Assembly: GCA_012730045.1 (NCBI GenBank)
Contig: JAAYBR010000075.1
Coordinates: forward strand, 1 to 56,024
From: Candidatus Hydrogenedentota bacterium
GTDB lineage: Bacteria; Hydrogenedentota; Hydrogenedentia; Hydrogenedentales; CAITNO01
Direction: 5' to 3'
DNA length: 56,024 nucleotides
In this document: in pieces, positions 4,325 through 48,935 of the stretch
How positions within the stretch are numbered: the stretch's first letter is position 1
Layout: the number at the start of each line of letters is the position of its first letter
Program-made: the position numbers and the translations under genes
Notes under the pieces: model-generated
Databases searched by the model: none
Told to the model about the DNA's origin: nothing
What the model saw: only the letters and a program-made list of their open reading frames with translations

Positions 4325-4966
4325 TTACCTGCGGGGCGGGGCTTCGCCGCAGGGGCCGGGAGGGGCGGCGCGCAGGGGCGTGTTCCGCCGCTGCTCCTCC
4401 GAGGTGACCCCGATGACCATGTCCAGCGTTCCGTCCTCGCTGAGGCCGTAGTTCATTCCCCCCACAGGCAGGGATTCGACGGCTCCGCGCAGGGTACGGC
4501 CCCGGTCGGTCAGGTAATGCACCCGCTGGTTCCCCGACCCGGCCAGGGGGTGGGTCTGCGGGAGGTCGCACCGGTAGGGGCCGTCCACCAGAATGTCCAC
4601 AAGGCGCAGGAGTTTTGCCGTCTCCTCGCGCGGTTCCAGTTCTCCGAGCAGATAGCCGGTATACAGGAGCGCGTTCCAGTCGGGCCGGGTCTCCCGAAGC
4701 GCCTCCAGCAGCCCGGCGAGGGGTTCCGCCTGGTCGAAGGGCTCGCCGCCCGAGACGGTCACCCCCGAGAGCGGCGCCTCGATCCGCAGAATGCGCTCCG
4801 CCAGCACCGGAACAGGCACCTCCCGTCCCGCGCTGGCGGGCTGCATTTCGGGGCTGATGCAGCCGGGACAATTCCTCCCGCACCCGGCCACCCAGAGCAC
4901 GAGGCGGTTCCCGGGGCCCAGTGCGGTCACGGGCCAGGACAGGGCGAAGAGCCGCAGGGAGCTCAT
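4325..4966 (-). CDS. NrdG-like radical SAM 4Fe-4S protein
   Basis: A 213-residue single-domain radical SAM protein of the type annotated as anaerobic ribonucleotide reductase activase. The cluster-binding motif CGRNCPGC (Cys29, Cys33, Cys36) has the CxxxCxxC spacing, and VSGGEPF (71-77) is the SAM-binding GGE element. No class III reductase (nrdD) is nearby. Instead the ATG overlaps the stop of an AAA+ ATPase gene by 4 nt, so the two are translationally coupled. A function with that ATPase rather than in nucleotide reduction is therefore likely. This is inference. Confidence 0.8.
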   Translation of the reverse strand: MSSLRLFALSWPVTALGPGNRLVLWVAGCGRNCPGCISPEMQPASAGREVPVPVLAERILRIEAPLSGVTVSGGEPFDQAEPLAGLLEALRETRPDWNALLYTGYLLGELEPREETAKLLRLVDILVDGPYRCDLPQTHPLAGSGNQRVHYLTDRGRTLRGAVESLPVGGMNYGLSEDGTLDMVIGVTSEEQRRNTPLRAAPPGPCGEAPPRR

Positions 4967-6966
4967 GGATCCTCCACCCGCACCACAAGCTCCACGCGCG
5001 TGCCCGTCTCCTCGCCGTGGACCAAAAGGTCCAGCACGCGCACCCGCCTGCCCATCTCCACGTTGTTGTCAAAGAGATACCGGCTGAGGGGGTTGATCAG
5101 CGTGGCGTCCACGGCGTTGCGGATGCCGCGCCCGCCGTGGTGGAGCTGTTCCCGCGCAAGGGCCACCAGCTTCTCCCGCGCCGGCGGATCCAGTACCACC
5201 GGGGTCTTGCGCGTTTCCCGCGTGGCCTTGTCGAGCTTCGACAGGAGCAGGTCCACGATCTGCTCGTCCAGCGGCGGCTTGATGAAGTCGAAGACGACGA
5301 AGTTGTCGCCGAACCGGTTCAGGATTTCCGGACGGCCCAGGGTGAAGTTGAAGTGGTCCCGGATGGCGTCCAGCACGACCCCGCGCATTTGCGGATAGGG
5401 CATCTCCGGAGTGACCAGAACTTTCGACCCTGTCTCCTCGGTCCGCGCCACGGTGCCGAGGTTGCTGGTGAAGATGATGATGCACTCGGAGAAGTAGACC
5501 GTGTCCCCCTTGCTGTCCGTGATCCGTCCGTCGTCGAGGATTTGGAGGAACTTGTCAAAGATGCTCGGATGCGCCTTCTCAATCTCGTCGAACAAAAGGA
5601 CGGAGAAGGGGTTCTTCTTGACGGCGTTGGTGAGCTGTCCGCCCTCCTCGTAGCCGATGTAGCCGGGGGGCGCGCCGAGGAGCCGCTGGTCCGCCTGCTG
5701 CACGGAATACTCGCTCATGTCGAAGCGGATCAGGCGCTCCTCGCGCCCGAAAAGCAGCTCGGCGAGCGCCTTGGCCATTTCCGTCTTGCCGACGCCCGTC
5801 GGCCCCGCGAAGAAGAGCACGCCGCGCGGGCGGTTCGTGCGCTTGGTGTCGCCCGCCGCGATGCCGATCTTGGCGCGCTTCACGATGTCCAGCACCCGGG
5901 CCACCGCCGCCTCCTGTCCCTTGATGCGCCCGCGCACGAAGTCCTCCGCGTTGCTCAGGCGCTTCGGGTCCATCTGGTCCCACTCGCTCACGGTCACACC
6001 GTACTTGTACATCTCCGAGATGCGCCGGACATTGGAAACGCCGGTGAGCTCGTCCACCACGGGGATGCGCTCGCGCATGGAGAGGCTGAGCAGGCTGCGC
6101 ATTTCATAGTTCGACAGCCCCTCGGTGAAGTCCACGAAATCCGACACCACCGCCGTCGGCGCCGCGGGGGCGCTGTCGCCGCGCGGCGCGCCGTAGAAGT
6201 ACCGGTAGTAGCGCGTGATGAAGCGGGCGCGCTCGTCCCGGTCCGGCGGCTCGACATGGATCGAACGCGCGCGCGGGTTGTTGAGGTAGAGGAACGCGGG
6301 CAGGTCGTTCAGCTTTTCGCAGATGAGGATGAGCAGGTTGTTCCACCGGCCCTTCTCGCGCACCACCTCGCGGGAGGCCAGGCTCGCCTTGAGCATGCGC
6401 GTGAGCAGCATGCGCTCGTCGCGCGGCATGCGGTCCGGCGTGGAGGTGAGGCGGGACGCGAAATCCACGATGAACGCGCAGGGCACCTGCGGGTTCTGCA
6501 GCGCGATGCCGATGCGGTGGATGACGGTGTCCCAGTCCACGGGACGGGGACGGATGCCCCGGACGCGGTCCGCCATGCGCGCCGCGGCGCCCTTCTGGTC
6601 CGGTGTGCCCAAAGAGCGGCCCGCCTCCAGCTGCGGGTGCCGGTCGGCCTGCTCTTCCGGGTCCGCGCAGGCTCCTGTGCCGCGGAGCACCTTGTCGAAA
6701 AGGGCCTCCATCTCCGGGGTTAGAAAGGAGAGGTCTTCCAGCGGGTCGGCCCAGCCCACGATCTCGTACTTCAGCCCCATGAGCCAGCGGCGCAGGAATC
6801 CGGGCAGGTCGCTCTCCGACCAGCGGGGCTCCTCCTCCCCCTCGCCCTGCACGGGGAAGGAGACCAGGTCGTAGGTGTTTCCGTAGAGGAAGAGGACGTT
6901 TTTAATGCTGCTGAAGCGGGCCAGCTCGCGCAGCCAGCGCTGGGATTCCTCGTTGATGACGATCAT
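4963..6966 (-). CDS. Clp/HSP100-like AAA+ ATPase with a degenerate first ATPase domain
   Basis: A protein of about 667 residues. The C-terminal half is a ClpA/ClpB D2-like AAA+ module: Walker A GPTGVGKT (about 385-392), Walker B LLFDEIEKAHPS (about 454-465), sensor 1 FTSNLG, arginine-finger region GRPEILNRFG (about 542) and the GGRGIRN small-domain motif. The N-terminal half (about 1-310) looks like an AAA fold too: YGN at the P-loop position, FIVDFASR at Walker B and ICEKLNDLP at sensor 1. It lacks a Walker A lysine. I chose the ATG at 6966 because GGAG lies nine bases upstream; a GTG at 6993 is possible. There are no ClpP-binding or N-domain repeats. It is coupled to the radical SAM gene downstream. 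Confidence 0.8.
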   Translation of the reverse strand: MIVINEESQRWLRELARFSSIKNVLFLYGNTYDLVSFPVQGEGEEEPRWSESDLPGFLRRWLMGLKYEIVGWADPLEDLSFLTPEMEALFDKVLRGTGACADPEEQADRHPQLEAGRSLGTPDQKGAAARMADRVRGIRPRPVDWDTVIHRIGIALQNPQVPCAFIVDFASRLTSTPDRMPRDERMLLTRMLKASLASREVVREKGRWNNLLILICEKLNDLPAFLYLNNPRARSIHVEPPDRDERARFITRYYRYFYGAPRGDSAPAAPTAVVSDFVDFTEGLSNYEMRSLLSLSMRERIPVVDELTGVSNVRRISEMYKYGVTVSEWDQMDPKRLSNAEDFVRGRIKGQEAAVARVLDIVKRAKIGIAAGDTKRTNRPRGVLFFAGPTGVGKTEMAKALAELLFGREERLIRFDMSEYSVQQADQRLLGAPPGYIGYEEGGQLTNAVKKNPFSVLLFDEIEKAHPSIFDKFLQILDDGRITDSKGDTVYFSECIIIFTSNLGTVARTEETGSKVLVTPEMPYPQMRGVVLDAIRDHFNFTLGRPEILNRFGDNFVVFDFIKPPLDEQIVDLLLSKLDKATRETRKTPVVLDPPAREKLVALAREQLHHGGRGIRNAVDATLINPLSRYLFDNNVEMGRRVRVLDLLVHGEETGTRVELVVRVEDP

Positions 6967-7001
6967 GCGGCGGTGCTCCCCGGTTGTCGGCACACCCCGG
7001 C

Positions 7002-26786: not shown

Positions 26787-27296
26787 ATGCGCTATGTGAA
26801 AGTCTGCCCGCGCTGCGGGGCGGAGAACGACGAGATGGCGGAGATCTGCCTGAGGGACGGCGAGTTCCTCGGCATGGTGCCCGCGACCCCCGCGGCGCCC
26901 CCGCGGCCGGAAGCCGCGCCCCCCGCCCCCGCGGCGCCCGCCGTGGAAGCCGCCCGCGCGGACGGCGAGGATATTGTGCTGTACCTGGAGAACGCCGCCA
27001 CGGGCGAGTGTTATCTGCTGCGGCCGGGGTGGGTGGTCGGGCAGGAGCATCCTGAAAACATGGCGGAGGTGCAGCTCGGGGAGCGGCCGGGCATTCAGTA
27101 TGTTCACCGCAGGCACTGCCGGTTTCTTCACGGGGGGGGCGTGTGGGAGGTGGAGGCGCTGGAGCAGCCGGACTACACGAACCCCACCCTGGTCAACCGG
27201 CGGCGCGTGCCCGCGGGCGGGCGGATGGCGCTGCGCAACGGGGACAGTCTCGCCCTTTCGGGGGTCCAGTTCACGGTGAGGATCATCGCCCCATGA
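26787..27296 (+). CDS. Zinc-ribbon and FHA domain protein
   Basis: A 169-residue protein. The N-terminus has CPRCG and a further Cys in EICLRDGEF, a degenerate zinc ribbon with three cysteines. A Pro/Ala linker (about 33-57) leads to an FHA-like domain (about 62-168) with WVVGQE, VHRRHCRF, NPTLVNRRRV and LRNGDSLALSGVQFTV, a phosphothreonine-reading fold. It is the first gene of a four-gene operon, and its stop overlaps the phosphatase ATG by 4 nt. It probably reads phosphosites made by the kinase two genes downstream. A CATAAT at 26722-26727 could be its -10. Confidence 0.8.
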   Translation: MRYVKVCPRCGAENDEMAEICLRDGEFLGMVPATPAAPPRPEAAPPAPAAPAVEAARADGEDIVLYLENAATGECYLLRPGWVVGQEHPENMAEVQLGERPGIQYVHRRHCRFLHGGGVWEVEALEQPDYTNPTLVNRRRVPAGGRMALRNGDSLALSGVQFTVRIIAP

Positions 27297-28117
27297 AGAC
27301 AGTGCGCCTGTGCGGTGTGACGGATCCGGGCGTGAAGCGCTCCGAAAACCAGGACATGCTCCTGCTCGGGCGCGTGGTGAAGAACGCGGGGTACCTGGAG
27401 ATGTCCTTCGCGGATAACGACGACTTCATGGTCCGCTACGGGTTTCTCGCCGCCGTGGCCGACGGGCTGGGGGGCCACGCCTCGGGCGCCCTGGCCGCCC
27501 GCATCGCCCTGCGCGGCATGGACCAGCAGTTCTACGGCGCCGAGAAGAACGGGCAGTGGCCCCCGACGCTCGCCGCCCTGCGCCAGGGGGGCGACCGGGG
27601 CAATTTCATGGTCCGGCAGGTGTCCGGGGCGAAGCCGGAGCACGCCGGCATGGGGTGCGTGATCGCCGGGGTGTGCATGCTGGGGGCGGAGTATGTGGTC
27701 TTTCACGCAGGCGACAGCCGGGTGTGCCGGTTCCGGCGGGGCGTGCTGCGCCAGCTCACGGAGGACGACACGGTGGTCGGCATGGCAGTCCGGGAGGGAC
27801 AGCTTACGCCGGAGCAGGCTTCCTCCAGCACGATGCGGCATGTCGTGACCAACGGGATCGGCACGGCGTCCTTCACCATGCACGTGTCCGAGCCGCAGAC
27901 CGCGCGGTCGGGCGACGTGCTGCTGGTCAGTTCCGACGGGCTCCACGATGTGGTGTCCATTGAGGACACGGAGCGGGTGCTGTCGGAGCGGGCCCCTCTT
28001 CTGGACCGGGCGAACCGCCTCAAGAACCTCGCCCTGGACGCCGGGGGTCCGGACAACATCTCCATTGTCCTGGTGGAGTACAGCGGCGGCGAGCCGGAAC
28101 CGGAGCCTGAATCGTGA
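27293..28117 (+). CDS. PP2C-family serine/threonine phosphatase
   Basis: A 274-residue metal-dependent phosphatase with all core motifs: RSENQD, VADGLGGHASG, HAGDSRVCRF, SSDGLHD and GGPDNISIVLV. The acidic metal ligands are therefore in place. The open frame begins earlier, but the ATG at 27293 overlaps the FHA stop (ATGA) and yields the standard N-terminus with GVTDPGVKRSENQD. It ends in an acidic tail (EPEPEPES) and overlaps the kinase start by 4 nt. Its likely role is to reverse phosphorylation by the neighbouring kinase. Confidence 0.9.
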   Translation: MKTVRLCGVTDPGVKRSENQDMLLLGRVVKNAGYLEMSFADNDDFMVRYGFLAAVADGLGGHASGALAARIALRGMDQQFYGAEKNGQWPPTLAALRQGGDRGNFMVRQVSGAKPEHAGMGCVIAGVCMLGAEYVVFHAGDSRVCRFRRGVLRQLTEDDTVVGMAVREGQLTPEQASSSTMRHVVTNGIGTASFTMHVSEPQTARSGDVLLVSSDGLHDVVSIEDTERVLSERAPLLDRANRLKNLALDAGGPDNISIVLVEYSGGEPEPEPES

Positions 28118-30666
28118 CCGACGGCGCCGACAAGAGGGGAAACGGGGAGGAACCCAGGTTGACGGAGCGTTTCCCCGAAGAACGCGCCACCGAGCGGTTT
28201 GACGAGCCGCGCGCGACCGCGCGGTTCGAGGAGGCGGCCTCCGCAGACGCCGTTCCCCGGTCCGCGCCCGCACCCGGCGCGCTTGTTCCGGGAGAGACGG
28301 TGGACGGGCGGTACCGGGTGGAGGAGGGCCCCGTCGGCGATCCGTCGGGGGAGGCCATGGTCTACCGCTGCGCCGACCTCGAGGGCGGGGGCGCGGTCGC
28401 GCTGAAGCACTACCACGAGAAGATGTCCCCCAAGGCCTCTGTCGTCACGCAGCTTTTGTCCATCCGGCACCGGGACATAGTGGCCATCCGCGGATGGGGC
28501 GTGTGGGCCGGGCGGGCCTACGAGGTCATGGACTACTGCGAGGGGGGAAGCCTGGCGGACTTCATGCCTTTTGACGAGGAGACGCTGCGGCGGGTGTGCC
28601 GCAGTGTGGTGCGCGGGCTGCACCACCTGCACCAGAACGGGATCATCCACCGGGACATCAAGCCCACGAACCTGTTTTTCCTCGACGCCGGCCGGACCGA
28701 CATCGTCATCGGCGATTTCGGCGTGAGCTCCATGATGGAGTCCGGCGAGCGCGTGCGCAAGACGGCCAGCGCGCACTTCTTCACCCTGGACTACGCCGCC
28801 CCCGAACTGCTCGACGGCAAGGAGGTCGGCCCCAAGACGGACTACTACGCCCTGGGCGTCACGCTGCTGCACCTGCGGGCGGGGCGGTCGCCCTTTCAGG
28901 GCATGGACCGCACCGCCGTGCTCGGCGCGCATTTCCGGGGCCGGGTGCCGCGGCCCGAGGGCATGTCCCCCGCCTTCGCGCGGCTCATCAGCGGCCTGCT
29001 GCGCGTGAGCCCCGAATCGCGCTGGGGCTACGCCCAGGTGCGTGCGTGGGTCAAGGGCGAGCCCGTCTTCACGGACGAGGGGGTTCCCGACCGCGAGGAG
29101 GTGGCCGCCGGCCGCCGCGTTCCCTACCGCAGCCTGCCCGAAATCACCACGCCCCGGGAAATGGCCCGGCGGATGGGCGACTTCGACGTGAAGCGGGACA
29201 TGTTGCGCGGATTTGTCTCCCAGTGGGTCATGCTCTTCGACACCGGCCTCGGGAAAGAGGTCGCCCGCATCGAGGAGCAGTACGCCGACCACCTGGACCT
29301 CGGCGCCTTCAAGCTGAAGTACCTGCTCGACCCGACGCTCCCCCTGGAGTTTGGCGACAGCCAGGCGGTGAACATTGAGCAGCTGGTCACCCTGCTGGCC
29401 GCCCCCTTCCTGTCCAGCCGGGACGAGCTGGTGAAACTGTTCCGCGCGGGATGCATCGAAATCTGGGTGAAGGCCCTGGGGGGCGACCCGGCGGCGGTTG
29501 AAACCCTCGCCCGGCGCATCCGGGACGTCCGGGTCCGCGTGAAGGATTCCGATGTCGCCCTGTTCGCCCTCATGCACACCCTGGACCCCGCCCGGCCGAT
29601 GGCCTTCGGACCCGCGCGCGTCAAGGCCCCCGAGGAGCTTCCGGGGCTGATTCAGGGCAATCCCGCGCAAACCGGCAGGCTGGTCAACCACCTGTTCAGC
29701 GGACGCCTCGCCGAGTGGATGCGCGCGGTGTTTCCGGACCGCGCCGAGGATGCGGCGTTTTTGGACCGCTGCGTCCGGGAGCACACCCGGGCCGACGCGG
29801 AACTGGCGGTCTTCCGCTTCTGCTGCCATTTCGACCCGGAGACCCCTTTCCGTCTGGGCATTTCCACCGCCGCCACGCCCGCCGAGCTCTCCGCCGTCAT
29901 CGCGCGCACGCCCCAGAGCATGCAGGACGGCGCGCGGATGCTGTCCCGCGGCTGGATCCGCGCCTGGCTTGTTGATACGGGGCGCATGAAGGACACAGCG
30001 GCCTTTGACGAGGTGATCGCCGATCCCGTCTCCTCGTGGAGCCGGAAGCTGGAGGCGGTGCTCAAGCTGCTCAACCCCGACATGGGGGGGCCCGTCGTGC
30101 TGGCCGACGCGGAGGAGCTGGACGGCGGGCGGCTCACGGTGGAGGACACGGGGACTGTCCGGGTGAACATTTTCAACGGCGGCCGCGGCCACCTCTCCGG
30201 CACGGTCATCCTCGAGACGGTCTCCGCCGGGTTCGCCATGGCCGATGTGACCATCGAGGGCAACGCCGTCACGGCGGTGGTGCATTTGACGGGGCAGGGG
30301 TTGGAGCCCGGATCCCGGCAGGACGCGCGTATTGTCGCCGAAACCAACGGGGGACGTCTCGTCATCCCCGTCCATTTCGAGGTGGCCCGGCCCGGCTGGC
30401 GCGCCCTGGGAAGAACGCTGCGGTCCGGCCTGGTCGTTGCGGCGGTCATGGGCCTGTTCCGGCTTACCGTCGCCGCGGTGGACCCCGCGCGGAACCTGAT
30501 GGTCGTCCCCTGGCCGCGCGGTGATGAGGTTCTTCGGGGGGACAGGGTTCTTGCGTATCTCGTGCTCCTGATGCTGCTGACCAACGCGGTCATCGTGGGG
30601 GGGCTGTGTCTGATCTCTGTGATCCGCCTGAACCGGTCCGGCGACGGCGGGGAGGGCGGCGGATGA
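28114..30666 (+). CDS. Membrane Ser/Thr protein kinase with tandem middle repeats
   Basis: An 850-residue protein. Residues 15-41 hold three 9-residue repeats with the core [LA]T[EA]RF. The kinase domain (about 64-320) has Lys98 in VALKHY, HRDIKPTN (179-186), DFG (201-203) and APE (229-231); the glycine loop is degenerate (EGPVGDPSGE). Residues about 345-665 contain four degenerate units of roughly 80-90 residues, each ending in a motif like LDPTLPLEFG, LDPARPMAFG or FDPETPFRLG. A beta-sandwich-like domain (about 670-765) and two membrane helices (about 770-790, 812-840) follow. The GTG start overlaps the phosphatase stop. This is a Hanks-type signalling kinase; its signal and targets are unknown. 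Confidence 0.88.
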   Translation: MTDGADKRGNGEEPRLTERFPEERATERFDEPRATARFEEAASADAVPRSAPAPGALVPGETVDGRYRVEEGPVGDPSGEAMVYRCADLEGGGAVALKHYHEKMSPKASVVTQLLSIRHRDIVAIRGWGVWAGRAYEVMDYCEGGSLADFMPFDEETLRRVCRSVVRGLHHLHQNGIIHRDIKPTNLFFLDAGRTDIVIGDFGVSSMMESGERVRKTASAHFFTLDYAAPELLDGKEVGPKTDYYALGVTLLHLRAGRSPFQGMDRTAVLGAHFRGRVPRPEGMSPAFARLISGLLRVSPESRWGYAQVRAWVKGEPVFTDEGVPDREEVAAGRRVPYRSLPEITTPREMARRMGDFDVKRDMLRGFVSQWVMLFDTGLGKEVARIEEQYADHLDLGAFKLKYLLDPTLPLEFGDSQAVNIEQLVTLLAAPFLSSRDELVKLFRAGCIEIWVKALGGDPAAVETLARRIRDVRVRVKDSDVALFALMHTLDPARPMAFGPARVKAPEELPGLIQGNPAQTGRLVNHLFSGRLAEWMRAVFPDRAEDAAFLDRCVREHTRADAELAVFRFCCHFDPETPFRLGISTAATPAELSAVIARTPQSMQDGARMLSRGWIRAWLVDTGRMKDTAAFDEVIADPVSSWSRKLEAVLKLLNPDMGGPVVLADAEELDGGRLTVEDTGTVRVNIFNGGRGHLSGTVILETVSAGFAMADVTIEGNAVTAVVHLTGQGLEPGSRQDARIVAETNGGRLVIPVHFEVARPGWRALGRTLRSGLVVAAVMGLFRLTVAAVDPARNLMVVPWPRGDEVLRGDRVLAYLVLLMLLTNAVIVGGLCLISVIRLNRSGDGGEGGG

Positions 30667-31709
30667 ACTCCTCCCGCCTTCTAGCGCATCTGCTGATCAC
30701 CGGGGGATTGCTGGTGCTGACCGGTGTGCTGACCATTTTCACCGCGGGACTGGACAACGCGGGGAACTACGCCCTGTCCGTGCTGGCCACGGTGGACCGC
30801 GTCCTCGCGTTCCTGACCCCCTTTCCGGCCTTTGTCTCCTGGGCACTGGTCGGACTGGCAATCGGCGCCTTCGCCCACTTCTTCATGTGGGAGGCGCGCC
30901 ACTTCAGCCGGGGGCAGCAGCGCGCCGTGGGCGCGGCGGGGCTTGCGCTGCTGGTGCTCTATTTCATCGCGCTCCCCCTGTTTCATTCCCTCAATCCCGA
31001 GCGCGAATCGCCGAGGGGGCCCTGGTGGCGGGCGGACTCCCGGCGCGCGCCGGGCACGCTCCGCGAATTTGACGGAATCATGTTCGTCTGGGTGCCCTCC
31101 CCGCTGGAAGGCGCGGTGGTGGGAAGCCCGCCGGACGAGACGGGACGCCAGCCGGAGGAGACGCAGAGGCCCGTCTCGTTCAGGCGCGGATTCTGGATGA
31201 GCCGGGACGAAATCACCTGGGAGCAATACTGCCAGATGTGTCCCGAGAGCGGGGAAAGCCTTGTTCCCGGCCGGGAGCAGTTTCCGGCCATCGGCTTGAC
31301 GTTTGAACAGGCGGAGGAATTCGCGCGCAGGCTCTCCCAAAAAGGCGGGGGGAGCTGCCGCATTCCCCGGGAGGATGAGTGGGAGCATGCATGCAGGGCG
31401 GACGCGAGAAGCGCCTATTCGTTCGGTCATTTCCCGAGCGTTCTGGGGGAATACGCCTGGTACCAGGGGAACAGCGGGGACGGCCCCAAAGAGGTGGGCG
31501 GGCTCAAACCAAACGCCTGGAACCTGCGGGACATGCACGGGAACGCCGCAGAATGGTGCGTTCCCATCCTGGCCGGAGCGCAGGTGTACCGGGGCGGGAG
31601 CTGGAAAAGCACGGGAACCCAGTGCCGCTGCGCCGCCCGGGGCCTCTATTCCCCCGGCGAACTGACACTCCCCGATGATGTGGGCATCCGATTGGTGCGG
31701 GATCCGTGA
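30663..31709 (+). CDS. Membrane protein with FGE-sulfatase (SUMF1-like) domain
   Basis: A 348-residue protein. Three N-terminal hydrophobic helices (about 7-30, 45-73, 85-107) precede a formylglycine-generating-enzyme fold (about 130-348) with FWMSRDEITWEQYCQ, FPAIGLTFEQAEEFARRL, RIPREDEWEHACRA, NLRDMHGNAAEWC and YRGGSW. The active-site pair of genuine FGE (CxxxxC before the C-terminus) is absent, so it is unlikely to make formylglycine. FGE-fold modules of this kind often act as binding domains. The ATG overlaps the kinase stop by 4 nt. It is the last gene of the FHA-PP2C-kinase operon. Confidence 0.85.
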   Translation: MNSSRLLAHLLITGGLLVLTGVLTIFTAGLDNAGNYALSVLATVDRVLAFLTPFPAFVSWALVGLAIGAFAHFFMWEARHFSRGQQRAVGAAGLALLVLYFIALPLFHSLNPERESPRGPWWRADSRRAPGTLREFDGIMFVWVPSPLEGAVVGSPPDETGRQPEETQRPVSFRRGFWMSRDEITWEQYCQMCPESGESLVPGREQFPAIGLTFEQAEEFARRLSQKGGGSCRIPREDEWEHACRADARSAYSFGHFPSVLGEYAWYQGNSGDGPKEVGGLKPNAWNLRDMHGNAAEWCVPILAGAQVYRGGSWKSTGTQCRCAARGLYSPGELTLPDDVGIRLVRDP

Positions 31710-41437: not shown

Positions 41438-41527
41438 TGCCCGGGTGGTGGAATTGGCAGACACGCTAGACTAAGGATCTAGTCCCTCACGGGGTGCGAG
41501 TTCAAGTCTCGCCTCGGGCACCATTTC
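41438..41527 (+). repeat. attL: 90-bp direct repeat containing tRNA-Leu
   Basis: The 90 bases from TGCCCGGG to CCATTTC are identical to 48846-48935. Identity stops sharply at both ends (preceded by CCG here and TTA there; followed by TTA here and AGA there). This is the left attachment site of the integrated element. Confidence 0.92.
41439..41523 (+). tRNA. tRNA-Leu (anticodon AAG), left copy
   Basis: 85 nt with encoded CCA. The acceptor stem is GCCCGGG/CTCGGGC (one G-U pair) and the D stem GTG/CAC. The anticodon stem is CTAGA/TCTAG with loop CTAAGGA. A long variable arm (CCC-TCAC-GGG) marks a class II tRNA, and the T arm is GCGAG-TTCAAGT-CTCGC. Anticodon positions 34-36 read AAG (codons CUU and, if A34 is deaminated to inosine, CUC/CUA). 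It is identical to the copy at 48847 and forms the left end of the mobile element. Confidence 0.95.
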
Positions 41528-48845: not shown

Positions 48846-48935
48846 TGCCCGGGTGGTGGAATTGGCAGACACGCTAGACTAAGGATCTAGTCCCTCACGG
48901 GGTGCGAGTTCAAGTCTCGCCTCGGGCACCATTTC
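48846..48935 (+). repeat. attR: 90-bp direct repeat containing tRNA-Leu
   Basis: Identical to 41438-41527; sequences diverge immediately outside. This is the right attachment site of the element. Confidence 0.92.
48847..48931 (+). tRNA. tRNA-Leu (anticodon AAG), right copy
   Basis: Identical over all 85 nt to the tRNA at 41439, with encoded CCA and a complete cloverleaf. It lies at the right end of the mobile element and is followed by a strong terminator that belongs to the chromosome. Confidence 0.95.

Follow-up and report, generated by a model that had tools for sequence, protein, structure and literature searches.

A kinase, phosphatase, FHA and FGE-fold gene cassette in a Candidatus Hydrogenedentota bacterium as the candidate membrane-proximal half of an apparently undescribed seven-part signalling system

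Results

The window analysed here is the whole of contig JAAYBR010000075.1 (56,024 nucleotides, forward strand) from a Candidatus Hydrogenedentota bacterium, and is the complete contig C75 of an assembly (GCA_012730045.1, termed G000 below) that comprises 155 contigs and is 97.5% complete. A cassette of four genes lies on its plus strand and may belong to a larger phospho-signalling system. The genes encode, in order, an FHA adaptor (26787-27296; 169 amino acids (aa); Pfam FHA, 1.3e-5), a PP2C-type phosphatase (27293-28117; 274 aa; Pfam PP2C_2, 9e-9), a Ser/Thr kinase that starts at a GTG codon (28114-30666; 850 aa; Pfam Pkinase, 1e-40), and a receptor-like FGE-fold membrane protein (30663-31709; 348 aa; Pfam FGE-sulfatase, 7e-22). 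Neighbouring genes share stop/start overlaps of 4 nt each, which read ATGA at 27293-27296, GTGA at 28114-28117 and ATGA at 30663-30666. The coordinates of the four reading frames and the three overlaps match exactly those reported in the first-pass annotation of this DNA.

The catalytic residues of the kinase (K98, HRD H179-D181, DFG D201-G203 and APE A229-E231), which lie in a Pkinase domain encoded at about 28354-29040 on the plus strand, are invariant across the orthologues, as are the metal-binding aspartates D57, D215 and D254 of the PP2C protein; by these residues the kinase is predicted to be an active Hanks-type enzyme, and the phosphatase to hold the metal-binding aspartates of an active PP2C. 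The N-terminal tail of the kinase carries a TERF/TERF/TARF ladder (28162-28227, plus strand) with threonines T17, T26 and T35 spaced nine residues apart. Across 13 kinase tails, which are homologous and therefore non-independent sequences, T-x-x-Phi was observed 43 times, compared to 8.4 +/- 2.6 times after shuffling (0/5000 shuffles), and hydrophobic enrichment was found at the +3 position only (45/78). The ladder takes the form T-x-x-F/L/W, with TRAW/TRGW/TRPF in Thiocapsa; in the Clostridial relatives (G539 and Aristaeella) it is TxxN, with 10 observed versus 2.0 +/- 1.3. The threonines T17, T26 and T35 fit the role of phospho-acceptors and FHA docking motifs, and are predicted as such. There is a precedent for a pT-x-x-F ladder in the TQXF repeats of MDC1, which are read by the FHA domains of RNF8 and Pellino (PMC11884936). 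The repeated T-x-x-F motif as an FHA docking ladder is common to both cases; the ladder described here differs in that it is predicted, bacterial and located on the kinase itself, and in that the FHA pocket is altered at the Arg and Ser positions.

Three helical tandem repeats of about 80 aa (29293-30030, plus strand; F-x-L-x-x-x-LDPxxPxxxG ... LxxGxxxxWL; hhalign 1e-12 to 1e-17) are also encoded in the kinase gene, and no family match to these repeats was found in Pfam. Residues of about 660-760 (30091-30393, plus strand), which adjoin the membrane anchor, are modelled at a pLDDT of about 90 and match known structures with VIA Z scores of 12.1 (7som_D, 99 residues, 2.1 A), 11.6 (9fh8_A) and 11.2 (7ptb), so that this region of the model is classed as an ASH/SPD-2/MSP (PapD-like) beta-sandwich. 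The C-terminal membrane anchor consists of two transmembrane (TM) helices predicted from hydropathy (about 30418-30474 and 30559-30615, plus strand).

The FHA adaptor is composed of an N-terminal zinc-ribbon-like CPxCG...C motif, a proline/alanine linker and the FHA domain. In the window's protein, GQ replaces GR and VHRRH replaces VSRRH. The exchange of the phosphate-contacting Arg for Gln and of Ser for His is invariant in Hydrogenedentota and is likewise found in UBP4 and Deltaproteobacteria (GQ, HxxH); two further lineages combine GR with HxxH, and the canonical pocket (GR, SxxH) is present in Thiocapsa, Pelotomaculum and the Clostridial relatives. Between the Hydrogenedentota type and the Clostridial type, a change in the FHA pocket goes with a change at the +3 position of the ladder, as expected for partners. 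The match is not strict: Thiocapsa has a canonical pocket and yet carries the TRAW/TRGW/TRPF ladder.

The receptor-like protein begins with a stem of three predicted TM helices (30663-30992, plus strand), followed by an FGE-fold domain that is predicted to be extracytoplasmic (about 31122-31700, plus strand; Pfam FGE-sulfatase). True FGE enzymes have a CxxxxC pair in the C-terminal motif. In each of the 11 orthologues this motif reads RGGSW...CRxAxR and has no CxxxxC, so the description of the fourth protein as a membrane-bound FGE-fold protein lacking the catalytic cysteines stands, and formylglycine-generating activity was rejected on the basis of the motif. The stem is conserved, whereas the outer domain is an FGE fold in Hydrogenedentota, another sequence in a Firmicute, small in a Rhodobacteraceae metagenome-assembled genome (MAG), and absent from a paralogue in genome G043; that of UBP4 appears to consist of propeller-like repeats with no Pfam match. 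The outer domain also diverges faster than the stem (68% versus 82% identity), and by the positive-inside rule it would lie outside the cell. Because the outer domain is exchanged between phyla on a conserved three-TM stem, the simplest reading is that the fourth protein is probably a receptor.

A match to the C-terminal half of the kinase is carried by 11 of the 68 genomes of the phylum. Ten of these 11 also encode the FHA protein, and the remaining one is interrupted at a contig end. The order FHA-PP2C-kinase-FGE, for which a genome search had been proposed in the first-pass annotation, could be read in 8-10 genomes from two families, with contig ends interrupting others; it is thus not unique to the window's genome, and its recurrence across two families indicates that the cassette is more than a chance arrangement. 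In G043, two TPR-like membrane proteins are inserted between PP2C and the kinase, and on a further contig of this genome (C373, locus L032) a paralogue of the kinase C-terminal half comes before genes for a stem-only membrane protein, a second protein of the membrane and a HerA-like ATPase. At locus L081, a kinase is trailed by a membrane protein that resembles the second membrane protein of L032. Two candidates were set aside: the PP2C paralogues of genus g2 (L040-L045) are solitary, with unrelated neighbours, and do not form a second cassette, and a match to the FHA protein in G048 covers the zinc-ribbon portion only. Locus L070 (G045:C177) bears the record label 'Nitrospiraceae', versus its placement among Hydrogenedentota in the genome collection.

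All three junctions are 4-nt overlaps only within the window's genus (G000 and G011). The FHA/PP2C overlap is present in seven genomes (G000, G011, G014, G005, G006, G015 and G016); outside the genus, genes at the other junctions either overlap slightly or are separated by as much as 34 nt. The translational coupling suggested in the first-pass annotation is therefore real but ordinary, and the fixed stoichiometry deduced from it is unsupported, since the majority of the junctions vary between genomes and the operon of G058 has no PP2C gene. All genes of the system are under purifying selection (dN/dS 0.08-0.29).

A second set of genes accompanies the cassette. Twenty kb away in the same window, on the opposite strand, lie an AAA+ gene (4963-6993, minus strand; 676 aa as called from GTG, although an internal ATG near 6966 is the likelier start) and an NrdG-like radical SAM gene (4325-4966, minus strand; 213 aa), which share a 4-nt overlap at 4963-4966. 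The C-terminal part of the AAA+ protein is ClpB-D2-like (AAA_2 and ClpB_D2-small), and its family-specific N-terminal half is probably a degenerate AAA domain. The radical SAM motifs CxxxCxxC and GGEP are kept in the window's protein and its orthologues. A third partner, a coiled-coil protein of 430 aa that begins MSG or MSS, is encoded on contig C94 in G000. In a search of the 68 genomes with the family-specific N-terminal half, the AAA+ protein was found in 10 of the 11 kinase-bearing genomes, the genome without a match being fragmented and 82% complete, and additionally on one contig of G027 (see below); the coil protein has the same distribution as the AAA+ protein among the kinase-bearing genomes (10 of 11). 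The hypergeometric probability of AAA+ given kinase is 4e-11 when kinship among the 68 genomes is ignored, and the true significance is weaker because the genomes are related. The presence and absence of the two halves are nearly identical and alternate among sister genera. Moreover, both halves form a single operon, (COIL-)AAA-rSAM-FHA-PP2C-KIN-receptor, in G045, G015 and G016, and a partial one in G058 and G043: the gene preceding FHA is the NrdG-like radical SAM gene in all five of these genomes, and the AAA+ gene precedes radical SAM in G045, G015, G016 and G058.

The radical SAM protein shares CxxxCxxC, GGEP and a Fer4_12 match with NrdG and PFL-activase proteins, but it is paired with an AAA+ protein and no glycyl-radical enzyme. 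Its identification as NrdG was rejected, as the G045 orthologue scores 97.7 bits against a curated cut-off of 126 and the NrdD of G000 has its own adjacent activase; NrdD and this activase (L141, 3843-9545, G000:C94) lie near the coil gene. A Foldseek search with the coil protein gave no match below 1e-3, and its VIA matches (Z 10.6 to a spermine synthase N-domain and 9.2 to KA1) were too weak for naming a function.

Outside the phylum, one scan of a contig collection and scans of two whole classes (369 genomes in that of Thiocapsa and 113 in that of Pelotomaculum) revealed the order COIL-AAA-rSAM-FHA-PP2C-KIN-receptor, with all or nearly all of its members, in UBP4, Deltaproteobacteria, Thiocapsa sp. 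KS1, the Rhodobacteraceae MAG, Pelotomaculum and another Firmicute. At remoter loci (G274 and G539), the radical SAM, FHA, kinase and AAA+ genes, in some cases with PP2C, stand in a rearranged order. A GC-poor contig in a Hydrogenedentota bin (G027:C142, L066), with the order AAA+-radical SAM-zinc-ribbon FHA-PP2C-X-kinase, is probably foreign.

Relatives of the second set were also found on plasmids. A tblastn search with the N-terminal half of the AAA+ protein returned 20 plasmid records at 22-31% identity. In five proteobacterial genera, Moellerella, Polaromonas, Acinetobacter, Leisingera and Photobacterium (L147, L152, L153, L154 and L155), the plasmids carry the order MkoA-like helicase-PIN-coil-AAA+-radical SAM, and their helicases match MkoA at 1e-92 to 1e-102. 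The remote AAA+ homologues at these loci align at 22-29% identity over about 97% of the N-terminal half (HMM 1e-29 to 1e-61), the radical SAM homology is recovered by HMM at 1e-34 to 1e-49, and the coil homology linking the chromosomal branch to that on plasmids is weak (hhalign 2e-4). The five-gene plasmid operon, whose radical SAM protein is of the 4Fe-4S type, often lies near anti-restriction, integrase or toxin-antitoxin genes. In Rhizobium, the AAA+/radical SAM pair precedes a kinase-DUF4011-helicase-REase fusion, and a plasmid of Aristaeella lactis (L156, 5063-22925) encodes in a single operon a PDC-S37-like DUF4011 helicase (E about 0), two kinases, coil, FHA, radical SAM, AAA+, PP2C and a DUF6273 protein. 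No match for the C-terminal half of the kinase was found on plasmids, and no relative of the AAA+ protein was found in phages.

Elsewhere in the window, ARAGORN predicts two copies of tRNA-Leu with the anticodon AAG, which is unusual in bacteria (41439-41523 and 48847-48931).

Discussion

We favour, with modest confidence, the view that the four genes encode the membrane-proximal half of a phospho-signalling system that is conserved and built from seven proteins: receptor, kinase with its ladder, FHA, PP2C, AAA+, radical SAM and coil. At the level of sequence, this working model is supported by composition, order, co-inheritance, intact catalytic residues, the ladder, outer-domain swaps and purifying selection. 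The mechanism that we infer, including its membrane topology and the direction of the signal, would run as follows. The three-TM receptor would sense an outside cue via its exchangeable outer domain, here of the FGE fold, and would control the adjacent membrane-anchored kinase, which would autophosphorylate the T-x-x-F ladder on its flexible N-terminal tail. The zinc-ribbon FHA adaptor would dock onto the phosphorylated ladder and thereby recruit or release the AAA+/radical SAM/coil machine, which may then remodel or radically modify a target protein, and PP2C would reset the ladder.

Several observations weigh against this model. The parts of the system are split over three loci in the window's genome and so are not co-transcribed there, the G058 operon is missing PP2C, the kinase and the AAA+/radical SAM pair are partners by prediction only, the topology is drawn solely from hydropathy, and the tail statistics come from related sequences. 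The replacement of the canonical Arg and Ser in the FHA pocket also counts against it, because phospho-dependent binding may have been lost in Hydrogenedentota. The first-pass annotation had described a module of writer, eraser and reader: co-occurrence, kept order and intact catalytic residues bear out a module of writer, eraser and adaptor, whereas FHA as reader is uncertain with Gln and His in the pocket, though the TxxF ladder fits docking.

That the cassette stands alone, with AAA+, radical SAM and coil co-occurring merely through shared ancestry, would accord with the separation of the two halves in the window's genus, where they lie on opposite strands and the coil gene is on another contig; however, the single operons of several Hydrogenedentota as well as of other phyla, together with the near-identical presence and absence among sister genera, make this very unlikely. 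It is still less probable that the FGE-fold protein is a real enzyme which generates formylglycine or carries out some other modification and whose activity is switched by phosphorylation. Its Pfam match (7e-22) and the presence of enzymes in the fold family speak for this, but the catalytic pair is missing and homologous systems replace the outer domain with unrelated ones or lose it. We give hardly any credence to the cassette being a post-translational regulator of type VI secretion (T6SS), a likeness to PpkA/PppA/Fha drawn in the first-pass annotation. The T6SS regulators have the trio of kinase, PP2C and FHA in common with the cassette (PMC3953482), encoded together, and in both the FHA protein is expected to read membrane-linked phosphothreonine. 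The likeness is refuted in the phylum, as VipB/TssC (PF05943), in a search whose positive control in E. coli worked, was present in none of the 11 system-bearing genomes and only in G034, G035, G036 and G037, from one other genus in which the system is absent. In addition, no T6SS genes were found at any locus examined, and the FHA protein scores 16.1 bits against the TagH model TIGR03354, for which the cut-off is 120. The system described here also differs in its membrane kinase with new repeats and an ASH domain and in its extra receptor, AAA+, radical SAM and coil proteins.

A further explanation, which we regard as rather unlikely though the likeliest of the alternatives, is that the system stems from a mobile superfamily of conflict (anti-phage) systems and has been domesticated on the chromosome; coil, AAA+ and radical SAM would form a machine for sensing or effector activation, regulated by kinase, FHA and PP2C, as in the versions on plasmids that include a helicase and a PIN nuclease. 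The five-gene plasmid operon looks like an uncharacterised defence system, and its MkoA-like helicase and PIN neighbours in five genera favour this explanation, as do the Aristaeella helicase-kinase-FHA-PP2C locus, the Rhizobium fusion, the patchy occurrence (11/68 genomes) and the HerA-like ATPase near the paralogous kinase of G043. The likeness to conflict systems proposed in the first-pass annotation thus gains indirect support, by way of plasmid relatives beside Mokosh-like helicases and PIN nucleases and by way of the Aristaeella locus. However, the Hydrogenedentota loci examined have no adjacent helicase, nuclease or other toxic effector, purifying selection is strong and synteny is stable in the window's genus, phage matches are absent, the coil homology between branches is weak, and PADLOC models match single components only. 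Mokosh (MkoA) and the PADLOC PDC-S37/Hhe-type helicases adjoin plasmid coil-AAA-radical SAM cores, some of them with kinases, whereas the Hydrogenedentota system has no such neighbour; membership in Mokosh was rejected, since the operons have no helicase and the match between the kinase and MkoA is confined to the kinase domain.

The nearest description to the seven-protein system, as far as the accessible portion of that paper extends, is that of other AAA/vWA systems in eLife 52696. The TerY-P triad and the PP2C-kinase-vWA systems in that portion likewise join a kinase and PP2C to a third domain and are tied to AAA+ conflict systems; they differ in that FHA takes the place of vWA here, next to a ClpB-like AAA+ and an NrdG-like radical SAM protein, and the present system is not described in that portion. 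No description of the whole system was found in open-access PubMed Central full text, which is weak evidence of absence as subscription literature falls outside that scope, and the seven-part bacterial signalling system is apparently undescribed. As a tentative proposal, which we hold with less confidence than the working model itself, there may be an undescribed class of systems in which a core of coil, AAA+ and NrdG-like radical SAM is joined to a receptor-kinase-FHA-PP2C switch on chromosomes of several phyla and to helicase/PIN nuclease effectors on plasmids; a self-phosphorylated T-x-x-Phi ladder would recruit the adaptor, and the +3 residue and the FHA pocket would co-vary between lineages.

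The seven-protein system might act by remodelling proteins when the envelope is stressed, or in a response to conflict; the plasmid relatives suggest an output of the conflict or defence type, which for the Hydrogenedentota branch is a lead only. Taken together, what looked like a local curiosity of four genes becomes a conserved multi-protein system across phyla, with the predictions of a phospho-ladder whose +3 residue is lineage-specific, a rewired FHA pocket and an outer domain exchanged on a fixed membrane stem. The working model would place a radical SAM enzyme and a ClpB-like ATPase in Ser/Thr phospho-signalling, a role for which the open-access literature searched holds no example. It would also tie a chromosomal signalling system to defence-like plasmid operons, and therefore each can inform the function of the other.

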